Positions 12,808 through 24,791 of a DNA stretch of 25,669 bases are shown here, in pieces (the first letter of the stretch is position 1; each line of letters starts with the position of its first letter). Both the position numbers and the translations under genes were made by a program. Source of the DNA: a virus; IMG/VR virus record IMGVR_UViG_3300027754_000391, positions 1 to 25,669 of that record. The stretch is one strand, 5' to 3'. The notes under the pieces are model-generated. The model saw only the letters and a list, made by a program, of their open reading frames with translations. It was not told where the DNA came from and did no database searches.

Positions 12808-12815
12808 TATTTATA
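12808..12815 (-). promoter_or_regulatory. Late promoter TATAAATA upstream of gp25
   Basis: This is an exact copy of the T4 late-promoter consensus on the minus strand. It overlaps the TAA of the upstream structural gene and ends four bases before the gp25 ATG. The T4-type start point would fall within the initiation codon, so it either makes a leaderless gp25 message or mainly serves gp6 and later genes. Confidence 0.6.
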
Positions 12816-13674
12816 ACTTACTTTTGAGTTTATCTGTGCCAACAAAATTATCTATTAGATGTAAAGAAATCTTTGATAGACTATTAAACTTTGAAATCTG
12901 ATTGAACTTAGTCATAGTTTCCATAGATTTTCTAAAGAAGTTTATATCGTGATTATATCTGTCATTGATAAGATTATAGCAAGTTGTTACATCTGTCTGA
13001 ATTGTACTAATTTGAGTTGCCGATAAATTTGTTGTATAAGTGTAAGTTGGAGCATCTTCATTACCACCTACTTGGATAGTAATGCTATTCTTAATTCTTA
13101 ATGCACCATCATTAATCTTAATCACCAATACACCAATTTCATCACCAATAAACAGACTTGTAAATGCACCGAGTGCAGCTGATGCATCATTTTGACCATC
13201 ATATCTGCTTGTTAGTTGCATCATGTATTCACCAATTGCCAAACCACTATTAAAATCTGGAAATGATGCGCTGGTTGATGCAGTCACACCAGAAATATTA
13301 TTTGTATGTTTAACGAACAATTCAATAATTCCAGTAGTGTGTGTTGTAACAATTGGCGGATTTTCAGCATCACCAGTTGTTACATCATAACCAGCTATTA
13401 GTCCAGCTGTGGTTTTAATAGTTTCCAAACCAGTTACAGCATATGATGATGTGTACATTGTGTTGGCAGCATTTCTAATTTCTGTTGAAATTGATGCCAT
13501 TGGATTTTGAAAATATCCCCCAATATCATTATTTGCAACAGCATCGAATTGCCATTTTTTATACATCGATGGTTGTTTTTTAAGAGTTTTTCCAATGTCA
13601 CCATATGGATCTAAAGCTTGTTGAAACTTCTCGTTACTAAAATTTAATCCTAAATTATCTATAAGTCTTGGCAT
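12811..13674 (-). CDS. Conserved virion structural protein between PAAR and gp25 (287 aa)
   Basis: I do not recognise a named T4 homologue. The N-terminus (LDPYGDIGKTLKKQPSMYKK, then WQFDAVAN and YFQNPM) is polar with a short helix. The middle (about 80-210) is Thr/Val/Ile-rich and probably beta. LFVKHTNNISGVTAS, ALGAFTSLFIGDEIGVLVIK and NDGALRIKNSI suggest a beta-sandwich. The last 70 residues are helical and basic. It lies exactly between the spike tip and gp25 genes, a place where marine T4-like phages often carry an unassigned structural gene. A hub or central-disc role is inferred from that. A GAGGA Shine-Dalgarno lies four bases before the ATG, overlapping the end of the PAAR gene. Confidence 0.8.
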   Translation of the reverse strand: MPRLIDNLGLNFSNEKFQQALDPYGDIGKTLKKQPSMYKKWQFDAVANNDIGGYFQNPMASISTEIRNAANTMYTSSYAVTGLETIKTTAGLIAGYDVTTGDAENPPIVTTHTTGIIELFVKHTNNISGVTASTSASFPDFNSGLAIGEYMMQLTSRYDGQNDASAALGAFTSLFIGDEIGVLVIKINDGALRIKNSITIQVGGNEDAPTYTYTTNLSATQISTIQTDVTTCYNLINDRYNHDINFFRKSMETMTKFNQISKFNSLSKISLHLIDNFVGTDKLKSKL

Positions 13675-13681
13675 AGTATCC

Positions 13682-13954
13682 TCATAATGCTAAAGTTGTA
13701 AACGAACCTGTGACGATGTTATGTCCACAGGTCTCAAAATCACCCATATGTACGGCGGGGATGCCATTGAACAGTACCATTCCAGGAGATGGTATTGCAA
13801 ATCCTGGAAAAATAAATGGTCCGTGCGGGTGCGGCGATGACATAGAACCAGCAATCAAAGCTGGTCTTCCATTCGCAAGAATGTTTGGATGTGGGAATCC
13901 ATGAATTCCTCCACCCCAATTAACATCACCCATGCAAGCTATTGGTCCTGGCAT
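13682..13954 (-). CDS. 5.4: PAAR-motif spike tip protein (gp5.4-like)
   Basis: This small 90-residue protein caps and sharpens the gp5 needle that pierces the outer membrane. PAAR features are visible: an IACMGDVNWGGG start; histidines at 22, 42, 44, 69 and 78; and a C-terminal PAVHMGDFETCGHNIVTGS with Cys76. Several of these His/Cys residues are expected to bind a metal at the cone tip. It is rich in Pro and Gly throughout, as PAAR proteins are. It directly follows the spike gene, as T4 gp5.4 is linked to gp5. The start has only a weak GAAAG in the usual place. Confidence 0.93.
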   Translation of the reverse strand: MPGPIACMGDVNWGGGIHGFPHPNILANGRPALIAGSMSSPHPHGPFIFPGFAIPSPGMVLFNGIPAVHMGDFETCGHNIVTGSFTTLAL

Positions 13955-21138: not shown

Positions 21139-21870
21139 ATGGGTTTACCAAAACTTGACACGCCAATTTATGAAACAACATTAATTTCAACAGGCAAAAA
21201 AATTAAATTTAGACCGTTTCTTGTAAAAGAACAAAAACTATTTTTAATGGCTTCTCAATCAGAAGATGCAAAAGAAGTTGTAAGTACAATCAAACAAGTA
21301 TTATCTAATTGTATATTGGATGATATTGACATTAATAGTTTACCAACTTTTGATTTGGAACATTTGTTTGTTCAGTTAAGGGCTAAATCTGTTGGTGAAG
21401 TTGTTAATCTTAGATATTCGTGTAATAACAATGTAGAAGACAAAGATGGTGGAACTAAAGTGTGTGGTGGAACAGTAAAGATTGATTTAAATCTTTTAGA
21501 AATTAAACCAACTATAGACCCAACACACTCAAGTAAAATTGAATTGTCTGCAAAAATGGGTATTGTTATGAAATATCCAAACTTTGATATTGTAGAAAAA
21601 TTGAATATACAAACGCAGGCTGAATTATTAAATTTAGTAACTGCTTGTATTGATTACATTTATGATGCGGAACAAATTTATCATGCAAAAGATGTTAGTG
21701 CAGATGAATTAAATGAATTCATTGAAGAAATGCAACAATCAGATTTAGAAAAAATTCAAAAGTTTTTTGAAACAATGCCACGATTACAAACTAAACATGA
21801 TTTTAAATGTGTAAAATGTGGATATCAAGAAAATATTAGTATCGAAGGAATTCAAAATTTTTTCGGGTAA
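21139..21870 (+). CDS. 26: gp26-like baseplate hub assembly protein (zero-frame product)
   Basis: This 243-residue protein belongs to the family I know as T4 baseplate hub assembly protein (gp26-like). It probably acts as an assembly chaperone for the hub or tape measure and may not remain in the virion. Features: an N-terminal beta region (ETTLISTGKKIKFRPFLVKE, about 12-31), a helical part with KLFLMASQSED, and a probable zinc site from Cys95, Cys109, Cys224 and Cys227 (CGG and CVKCGY). The ending SIEGIQNFF is typical. A strong GAGGA lies seven bases before the ATG. The last codons contain the slippery sequence T TTT TTC followed by GGG TAA. An alternative -1 product continues for 64 residues. 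This arrangement mirrors tail chaperone genes upstream of tape measures in other phages. The exact T4 counterpart name is less certain than the role. Confidence 0.8.
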   Translation: MGLPKLDTPIYETTLISTGKKIKFRPFLVKEQKLFLMASQSEDAKEVVSTIKQVLSNCILDDIDINSLPTFDLEHLFVQLRAKSVGEVVNLRYSCNNNVEDKDGGTKVCGGTVKIDLNLLEIKPTIDPTHSSKIELSAKMGIVMKYPNFDIVEKLNIQTQAELLNLVTACIDYIYDAEQIYHAKDVSADELNEFIEEMQQSDLEKIQKFFETMPRLQTKHDFKCVKCGYQENISIEGIQNFFG

Positions 21871-21978
21871 GTCTTTCCCACGATAGTTTGGGTAATTATT
21901 ATGAAACGAATTTTGCTTTGATGCACCATCACAAGTATAGTTTGACTGAATTGGATAATATGTTACCTTGGGAAAGAC
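21858..21978 (+). promoter_or_regulatory. Programmed -1 frameshift signal (slippery site plus long-range stem)
   Basis: The heptamer T TTT TTC at 21858-21864 fits X XXY YYZ in the gp26 frame, with tandem Phe codons. GGG TAA follows (stop 21868-21870). Six bases after the heptamer, GTCTTTCCCA (21871-21880) is perfectly complementary to TGGGAAAGAC (21969-21978). That gives a possible 10-bp stem with an 88-base loop, at the spacing usual for stimulatory structures. Competing smaller hairpins using the same CCC run exist (with GGG 21865-21867 or GGG 21890-21892). That frameshifting occurs is inferred, not measured. Confidence 0.75.
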
Positions 21979-22058
21979 AAGTTTATATTGATATGTTGGT
22001 GAATTTTTTAGAAGCAGAAAAAGAACGATTAAAAGCTCAACAGCAAGCGAGAAAATAA
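21864..22058 (+). CDS. -1 frame extension of gp26-like protein (64 aa, frameshift product)
   Basis: The -1 frame is open from a TAG near 21838 through to TAA at 22056-22058, which abuts the tape-measure ATG. A slip on the Phe-Phe codons would join residue 242 of the gp26-like protein to this 64-residue tail, making 306 residues. The tail reads SHDSLGNYYETNFALMHHHK, then YSLTELDNMLPWERQVYIDM and LVNFLEAEKERLKAQQQ. It is a compact helical, protein-like sequence with a charged C-terminal helix, and the style is familiar from marine T4-like phages next to gp26. The first ATG in this frame (21921) comes only after the start of the protein-like part, and TTG 21888 has no Shine-Dalgarno. Independent initiation is therefore unattractive. 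By analogy with lambda gpGT, the tail could bind the tape measure or tube protein. Confidence 0.75.
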   Translation, partial: RVSLSHDSLGNYYETNFALMHHHKYSLTELDNMLPWERQVYIDMLVNFLEAEKERLKAQQQARK

Positions 22059-24791
22059 ATGGCAGATAAAAAGTCCAGATTAGCAGAAATTTACAAGAGT
22101 GAAAAGACCACCGGTGGTGGTTTAACATCAACTTTGGGTAAAAGATTTAAAGAAAAGTTTGATCCTAGACAGATGTTTAATCAACAAGGTTTCATGGCTG
22201 CTCTTTTGCCTTCAATCTTTAAAGCTTATAAAGCACCAACACTATCATCAAAATTATCTCCAGCATTAAGTCCTACTGCAAGTAGTGGAGTTAGTGGACT
22301 ATCGAATGAAAAGCTTGATATTTTAATAGCGCAATCAAAAGACATTAAAATAAATTCCACAATTGTCGCAAAAAATTCTATGTCTAATAATGCAATGGCA
22401 AGAGACATGAATTTAATGAGACAGAATATATTTCAACTTGTTAAATTAAATAAAGGAGAACCAACAAATAAAGCTGACATGTTTTTTAAACATGCAGGTA
22501 AAAGAGATAAAGAATACAAATCGAAATTCAAAAAAGAAAGTAAAGTAGCTAATAACACAGCACCTACAAAAACTGGCGATACTGGAAAATCAGAAGGTCT
22601 TTTAGGTGTTGGGGGTGCATTAGGTGGTGCATTGGGTGGTTTAAGTAAGGGTATTGGAATAGCATCTAAACTTGGTGGTCTTGGGCTTGGACTTGCCGCA
22701 TTCTTAACTGCCTTGGGTGGCGCTGCTTGGGCTATAGATAAACTTGGTGGTATGTCTGGATTAAAAGATGTGTTAACTAATTTAGCTGAAGGCCTTGGTG
22801 CATTTAGTGGCGGAAGTTTAGTTGCACTTGGTGCGTTATTTGCTGGAAGTATGTTGTTTGGTGGTGGAACAAAAGGACTCAATATAGCAGTAGTTGGTGT
22901 TGGTATAGCAGGATTTTTAACTGCATTAGGTGCCGCTGGAGCTCTCGTTGATGCAATGGGTGGAAGTGGTGGCATTAAAACTTTATTAACAGATTTAGCT
23001 GAAGGTCTTGGTGCGTTTAGTGGCGGAAGTTTAGTTGCATTAGGTTCTTTATTTGCAGCTGGTGCTATATTTGGTGCTACTGGATTAGCAGGAAAAACAG
23101 CATTAGGAATTGGAGCTATGGGTGTTGGTATTGGCGCATTTTTACTTGCATTAGGTGGCGCTGCGGCCATTATTGATTTGTTTGGTGGTGGACCAAAACT
23201 TAAAGATTTATTACTTAATGTAGCTGAAGGCCTTGGTGCATTTAGTAATGGTAGTTTAATTGCATTAGGTTCTTTATTTGCAGCTGGTGCTATATTTGGT
23301 TCCACCGGACTAGCAGGACCATCTGCACTAGGAATCGGAGCTATGGGTGTTGGTATTGGCGCATTTTTACTTGCATTGGGCGGTGCTGCAGCCGTTATTG
23401 ATTTGTTTGGTGGTGGACCAAAACTTAAAGATTTATTAATTAATTTAGCTGAAGGTCTCGGGGGATTTAGTGGACTTGATGGTATGCACTTAGGAAAATT
23501 AGCTCTTGCAATTCCAACTTTTGGTGCTGCTATGTTAGCATTTTTTAGTTCTGCTGGTATTGGTGGCATAGTAAATTCACTTGCCGGTGGTATGAAAGGA
23601 TTAATTGATTTTATTTTTGGTAATGAAAAGAAAAGTCCAATGCAAAAACTTTCTGAAGATTTGCAGTTATTTCAAAATATTAATGGAGATAATTTATCTA
23701 AAATAGGCCAAGGTATGAAAGACTTGGCATCTGGAATGTTAGGTCTTGCTAAGTTAACAGATGAAGATTTAGCAAAAGTTTCCAAAGCCTCTGTTCTTGC
23801 GAAAACTATGGGTGGAACAGGTGGTGTTCCACCCTCATCAGTAGCACCAGCACCTACAGGAACAACTACACAAGCAGCATCAGATGCTAGAGCGTCAGCA
23901 GCAGCAACTGATCCAAGAAGAACTGATATTCCTCAAACATCGCCAACTCCATCTAAAGGTGGATCATCAACAACACCATCAGGTGGGGGGAAAAATCCTT
24001 TATTAGATATGATAGCACAAGGTGAATCTTCTGGTGCTGGTGGTTATAATGCGATGAATCAAGGGACACCAGGTGGAGGACCAGTTATAGGTTCTGGTGA
24101 TTCACAAAAAATTATTCAAAAGAAATTAACAGATATGACTGTTGGTGAAATAATGGATAAAGGTGCAAAACCAAATGATGATGCAGCTAAGAGAAAAGAA
24201 AATGGATTAATTTTTGCAGCAGGTAGATATCAAATTATACCAAAAACACTAGAAGGTTTGGTTAAACAAGGTGTTGTATCTAAAGAAGATAAGTTTAATG
24301 AAGAAACACAAGATAAATTAGGAATGGCTTTAATAAATGGAACAGGAGCAACAAAATTAGCTGAAGGTGGTAATTATGAAGAAGCTCAAAACGCACTCGC
24401 AAAAGTTTTTGCTTCTGTTCCTCTTGCCACAGATATTGGTAATAAAAAAGCAGGACAATCTTTTTATCAAGCTCCTGGCCAAAATCACGGTAATTCTAAA
24501 TTAGATGTTAGAGGTGCATTAATGGCATCTGTAAGCACTTCATCACCGAATCAATCTGCTGCTACTTTAGTACCAAATGCACCTTCATCAGCAACAACAT
24601 TAGCTGCAGCTACAACAGCTGTTTCACAAGAAAAAATGACTTTAGCTTCAGCTGCACCAGTTGTTAATAATATTACTAATAATAATGTTAATAATTCAAC
24701 AAGCGGTGGTGGTAGTGGTTCATCAGCACCATCTACAGCCTCTGTCTATGATGATTTATTTGCTAAACTTGTAGAAAGAGCTCTTGCATAA
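22059..24791 (+). CDS. 29: Tape-measure protein with lysozyme-like domain (gp29 position)
   Basis: This 910-residue protein follows the gp26-like gene and takes the gp29 place: it sets tail length and is released first on infection. Residues 1-160 are basic and helical (KSRLAEIYKSEK; FKEKFDPRQMF). Residues about 185-510 are Gly/Ala-rich hydrophobic helices, arranged in tandem repeats of 71-75 residues, each with an AEGLGAFS anchor. They could insert into the host membrane. A Ser/Thr/Pro linker (about 590-645) follows. Residues about 648-805 look like a muramidase domain: LLDMIAQGESSGAGGYNAMN with a likely catalytic Glu656, MTVGEIMDKG, AAGRYQIIPKTLEGLV (about 720-735) and NEETQDKLGMALI. The C-terminus has an Asn-rich segment and ends LFAKLVERALA. 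Its ATG abuts the -1 frame stop (TAAATG). T4 gp29 is 590 residues and has no such domain. The gp29 label rests on position. Confidence 0.85.
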   Translation: MADKKSRLAEIYKSEKTTGGGLTSTLGKRFKEKFDPRQMFNQQGFMAALLPSIFKAYKAPTLSSKLSPALSPTASSGVSGLSNEKLDILIAQSKDIKINSTIVAKNSMSNNAMARDMNLMRQNIFQLVKLNKGEPTNKADMFFKHAGKRDKEYKSKFKKESKVANNTAPTKTGDTGKSEGLLGVGGALGGALGGLSKGIGIASKLGGLGLGLAAFLTALGGAAWAIDKLGGMSGLKDVLTNLAEGLGAFSGGSLVALGALFAGSMLFGGGTKGLNIAVVGVGIAGFLTALGAAGALVDAMGGSGGIKTLLTDLAEGLGAFSGGSLVALGSLFAAGAIFGATGLAGKTALGIGAMGVGIGAFLLALGGAAAIIDLFGGGPKLKDLLLNVAEGLGAFSNGSLIALGSLFAAGAIFGSTGLAGPSALGIGAMGVGIGAFLLALGGAAAVIDLFGGGPKLKDLLINLAEGLGGFSGLDGMHLGKLALAIPTFGAAMLAFFSSAGIGGIVNSLAGGMKGLIDFIFGNEKKSPMQKLSEDLQLFQNINGDNLSKIGQGMKDLASGMLGLAKLTDEDLAKVSKASVLAKTMGGTGGVPPSSVAPAPTGTTTQAASDARASAAATDPRRTDIPQTSPTPSKGGSSTTPSGGGKNPLLDMIAQGESSGAGGYNAMNQGTPGGGPVIGSGDSQKIIQKKLTDMTVGEIMDKGAKPNDDAAKRKENGLIFAAGRYQIIPKTLEGLVKQGVVSKEDKFNEETQDKLGMALINGTGATKLAEGGNYEEAQNALAKVFASVPLATDIGNKKAGQSFYQAPGQNHGNSKLDVRGALMASVSTSSPNQSAATLVPNAPSSATTLAAATTAVSQEKMTLASAAPVVNNITNNNVNNSTSGGGSGSSAPSTASVYDDLFAKLVERALA
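22690..23475 (+). repeat. Tandem 213/225-bp coding repeats in the tape-measure gene
   Basis: The anchor GCTGAAGG (AEG codons) starts at 22785, 22998, 23223 and, as GCTGAAGG again, 23448. The spacings are 213, 225 and 225 bases (71, 75, 75 codons). The third and fourth units are nearly identical in DNA: runs such as GGTTCTTTATTTGCAGCTGG recur at 23043 and 23268, and GAGCTATGGGTGTTGGTATT recurs 225 bases later. The first unit has diverged more. Together they encode Gly/Ala-rich hydrophobic helices. Confidence 0.9.

Follow-up and report, generated by a model that had tools for sequence, protein, structure and literature searches.

The window analysed here, a 25.7-kb record of an uncultured virus, very probably encodes a tail-assembly chaperone in two forms (TAC-N and TAC-NC), the longer of which would be produced by programmed -1 ribosomal frameshifting near the 3' end of a gp26 gene. 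The short form (TAC-N) is a 243-aa ORF (21139..21870, + strand) belonging to the gp26 family, as it matches Pfam PF12322 with an E-value of 1.8e-62 (211 bits against a cut-off of 24.5) and PHROG 150 with an E-value of 4.6e-70. The 3' end of this ORF reads CAA AAT TTT TTC GGG TAA, where T TTT TTC (21858..21864, + strand) is a slippery heptamer of the canonical type X XXY YYZ with TTT TTC in register with the gp26 frame, and the zero-frame stop TAA (21868..21870, + strand) follows after a single codon (GGG); the initial annotation had placed such a heptamer just before the gp26 stop, and the reading agrees. The 17 ORFs of the window hold 45 canonical in-frame heptamers over 8310 codon positions, TTTTTTC accounting for just two, and in no ORF of the 17 other than gp26 does a heptamer of any canonical kind fall in the last 10 codons ahead of the stop.

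The -1 frame is open from 5' of the heptamer to a TAA at 22056-22058, which abuts the ATG (22059-22061) of a 910-aa ORF. After a -1 slip, the message would be read as CGG GTA AGT and onwards to this stop, giving an extension of 64 residues plus stop (21864..22058, + strand) and, joined to gp26, a long form (TAC-NC) of 306 aa. Both the 64-codon open frame touching the start of the putative tape-measure gene and the product lengths of 243 and 306 residues had been predicted in the initial annotation and are recovered by the ORF reading. The extension is identified as a gp51-type C-terminal domain (TAC-C) from its pattern of selection, described below, and from its match to PHROG 634 ('baseplate hub assembly catalyst', gp51; E=2.9e-28, positions 58-119 of 121), and its relatives are encoded in 570 phage records. 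A full-length gp51 is not present in the window, which contains the C-terminal part only, in the -1 frame of gp26. The protein-like stretch noticed earlier in this frame is present, but it does not start at ETNFALM as first proposed; it begins at the slip site (R-V-S-L-S-H-D), and the gp51 profile match starts at tail residue 2.

Relatives of the locus were compared by profile searches in three frames (329 loci fetched, 323 of which, the window's own included, are readable past the end of gp26). Outside the T4 group the tail is detectable in 315 loci and lies in the -1 frame relative to gp26 in all 315, while T TTT TTN stands in register in 314 of them, with C as the last base in 257, T in 52, A in 3 and G in 2. 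In seven loci no tail was detected, where the contig ends just past the heptamer or the sequence is masked, and the only zero-frame tail among the 323 loci is that of the full-length gp51 of 44RR. A search of the tail against phage genomes, suggested beforehand as a check, finds it always in -1 relation to gp26 and with a slippery motif, except in the T4 group, and these comparisons confirm the predicted slip site as real and almost universal in T4-like phages outside that group. The isolates inspected directly are KVP40, P-SSM2, Mosig, Cr30, ACP17, S-H34, Astolliot, RHph_N34, S-WAM1, Melnitz-3, S-CAM8, P-HM1 and Desulfovibrio phage 7757. In Pelagibacter phage Mosig (L085, 3001-3034) the heptamer is present and the gp26 frame runs eight codons longer to its stop. 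The sole relative without T TTT TTN in register (L326, gp26 end near 2196) has G TTT TTT A, which comes near GTTTTT, a motif that a passage of PMC12846349 reports from Vandenendeviridae.

Codon-level features were examined in a dereplicated set of 184 sequences, chosen for carrying the motif (as 314 of the 315 loci do) and spanning 126 clusters at 70% and 50 clusters at 50% protein identity. The second slippery codon is TTC in 142 of the 184, compared with 26% TTC among the Phe codons of these genes, and the spacing from heptamer to stop is exactly one codon in 155. The codon before TTT TTN ends in T in all 184 sequences of this motif-selected set, where codon usage predicts 120.

Selection in the -1 frame extends to the junction. 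At tail codons 5-10, which lie past the gp26 stop and, in the window, ahead of the first possible start, dN/dS is 0.24 in the -1 frame against 0.89 and 4.4 in the other frames, while at tail codons 12-40 it falls to 0.06 in the -1 frame (927 pairs with identities of 75% or more taken together, the pairs not being independent). These values bear on the view that gp51 is an independent small gene, reached by re-initiation after the gp26 stop at TTG 21888 or ATG 21921, which would agree with its separate annotation in many records, such as those of P-SSM2 (ATG just past the gp26 stop) and Mosig (internal ATG), and with the start codon of some kind that 108 of the 184 relatives have no later than tail codon 10. 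However, in none of the 184 sequences is a -1-frame start codon up to and including tail codon 10 accompanied by an SD-like sequence, the annotated starts are placed differently among records, conservation of the protein begins at the slip site, ahead of every start in the window, and this view gives no reason for the slippery motif. In the window itself the sole -1-frame start before ATG 21921 is TTG 21888, upstream of which no SD-like sequence was found, so the original remark that no usable start precedes the protein-like tail holds. Independent initiation is disfavoured because of the -1-frame dN/dS of 0.24 at codons 5-10 and the lack of an SD-backed start in the 184 sequences, and is considered improbable. 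A literature search on cyanophage gp51 proteomics gave no fusion peptide.

Two further explanations place the shift of frame outside the ribosome. RNA polymerase may insert a base in the T run, with the result that some of the transcripts would carry the fusion as one continuous frame, and both the U-rich run itself and the eight or nine T seen in some relatives would suit such transcriptional slippage. The run, however, is exactly six in 147 of the 184 sequences, which is short for slippage by bacterial polymerases, and C is favoured over T after the run, against codon usage; both observations speak against this explanation, the SD-like element described below points to the ribosome, and transcriptional slippage is thus held to be highly unlikely. 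A sequencing error, in which a miscounted T run splits one long gene, would be in keeping with the homopolymer at the breakpoint and with the single-frame fusion carried by T4-group phages, but the same break occurs in 315 loci, with the finished isolate genomes of KVP40 and P-SSM2 among them, and an error is refuted by the relatives sharing it, leaving it a negligible probability.

Programmed frameshifting by the ribosome, the reading preferred here, may be assisted by a Shine-Dalgarno-like element, GAAGGA (21844..21849, + strand), located 8 nt 5' of the heptamer. This element coincides with the codons of a conserved Glu-Gly pair, written GAAGGA in the window and GAGGG in many relatives. Across the 184 relatives its predicted anti-SD pairing, about -6 kcal/mol, is the strongest in the final 120 nt of the gene, where other positions give about +1 to -3 kcal/mol. 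It exceeds by about 1.3 kcal/mol (s.e. 0.15) the pairing obtained when the codons are replaced according to average usage, and no other scanned position deviates as much. The Glu codon of the element is GAG in 77 of 130 sequences, against 23% overall, and in 54-57% when clusters are weighted equally. Such a codon bias is consistent with a role of the element as a frameshift stimulator.

Clear downstream RNA structure is confined to particular lineages. The P-SSM2-like phages (L084:3001-3060, L178-L257) contain an 11-bp stem (AGTATGGCTCA/TGAGTCATACT) 5 nt after the heptamer with a mean z of -3.5, and S-H34 (L091), P-HM1 (L097) and Cr30 (L086) carry other, unrelated stems in much the same position. 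No downstream stem-loop was found in the clade of the window (mean z +0.13; the window itself -1.26), RNAalifold returned no consensus pair over the 184 sequences, column covariation in the downstream region is confounded by clade structure, and a search of Rfam gave chance-level matches only. What may perhaps be new here is the SD-like element together with the turnover of hairpins between lineages, both of them computed associations whose role we infer. It is conceivable, though rather doubtful, that the chaperone frameshift of T4-like phages is a tunable cassette, with an invariant U6N site and, in most lineages, an SD-like stimulator conserved at the codon level, where hairpins would have been added and lost independently and the ratio of short to long form adjusted lineage by lineage. 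With the SD-like element and the lineage-specific hairpins, nature supplies a series of cases in which the setting of a frameshift rate could be studied.

In the proposed mechanism, ordinary translation of gp26 would end at 21868-21870 and yield the 243-aa short form, while a minority of ribosomes would slip back one base at U UUU UUC and re-pair on UUU UUU, probably aided by GAAGGA upstream. The slipped ribosomes would continue in the -1 frame and produce the 306-aa long form, which ends in the 64 residues of the gp51-type domain. We infer that slippage occurs, and its rate would presumably hold the two products in a fixed ratio, as supposed in the initial annotation. The presumed target of both forms is the tape-measure protein, whose gene follows directly, as for lambda gpG and gpGT; on the lambda model, the shared part would bind the tape measure and the extra domain would recruit tail-tube subunits.

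The 910-aa ORF (22059..24791, + strand), whose ATG directly follows the stop of the extension, owes the name tape measure to its location and its composition and not to a match with a tape-measure profile; with this ORF so named, the chaperone pair lies directly upstream of a tape measure. In Cr30 the gene at the same position is annotated as tape measure, with one small ORF in between. The match of the 910-aa ORF to PHROG 90 (endolysin) is limited to residues 640-860 and suggests an embedded lysozyme-like domain. The AlphaFold model of gp26 has a mean pLDDT of 87 and is similar to gp26 proteins of viruses and, to a lesser degree, to gp51-like ones; among solved structures it matches the HK97 tail-assembly chaperone 2ob9 with a probability of 0.60 but an E-value of 0.83, which is suggestive only, and a sequence search of the PDB gave nothing credible. 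Elsewhere in the window, the baseplate cluster contains a 287-aa ORF (12811-13674, - strand) with no PHROG match, which adjoins a PAAR-like protein (13682-13954).

The slip site of lambda is G GGA AAG and that of the window is T TTT TTC, with a single codon left before the stop, the likeness being one of arrangement. The lambda G/GT system likewise comprises a short protein and its -1 fusion directly upstream of the tape measure (PMC5009743), and a 2016 review of recoding described the G-T frameshift as widely conserved in long-tailed phages 'except T4' (PMC5009743). The analogy with G/GT drawn in the initial annotation is apt in that arrangement. In dnaX of Escherichia coli, the slippery heptamer is A AAA AAG and is accompanied by a downstream stem-loop. 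An internal SD upstream of the heptamer is common to dnaX (PMC5600365) and the window, and the P-SSM2-like phages also have a hairpin downstream. The window itself has the SD-like element and no significant stem-loop, and differs in this from the full dnaX-type set of internal SD plus stem-loop.

The T4 group, represented by T4 and Aeromonas phage 44RR2.8t, differs from the window in that gp51 is full-length (about 249 aa) and encoded by its own gene, divergent from gene 26, so that short and long form each have a gene of their own, one per strand, and no frameshift is involved. T4 gp51 is required for assembly but is not found in the particle (PMC3004832). In its N-terminal part it resembles gp26 (BLASTP E=2e-6), while the C-termini of the T4 and 44RR2.8t gp51 align with the tail of the window; the gp51 of the T4 group comprises the same two parts in one frame, as judged from these alignments.

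Vladimirov and colleagues are said to have found in 2022 that frameshifting is apparently conserved in several T4-like groups, T4 itself using genes 26 and 51. The same work (Vladimirov, Gautam & Davidson, Virology 2022;566:9-15) is reported to have identified the TAC genes of T4-like phages; a passage of PMC12846349 traces to it the poly-T -1 signals of 'TAC-N genes of T4-like phages', and a passage of PMC10885494 credits it with separate short and fused genes in some T4-like phages. As far as these passages describe them, the T4-like TAC-N/TAC-NC (gp26/gp51) are the same genes as those of the window, at the same position and with the same poly-T -1 signal, the window coming from an uncultured relative; on their account the mechanism has been known for T4-like phages since 2022, to which the window would add another case. 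Joined annotation of gp26 and gp51 is nevertheless not standard, as the initial annotation had supposed, since every annotated relative examined gives two genes or gp26 alone, and joining them would be a simple fix. Sullivan et al. 2010 (PMC3037559) reported that cyanophage and marine vibriophage gp51 is without the first ~200 residues, the cyanophage 'gp51' being only about one fifth as long as that of T4. Frameshifting would explain this short cyanophage 'gp51' as the end of gp26 read after a frameshift, rather than as a gene that has shrunk.
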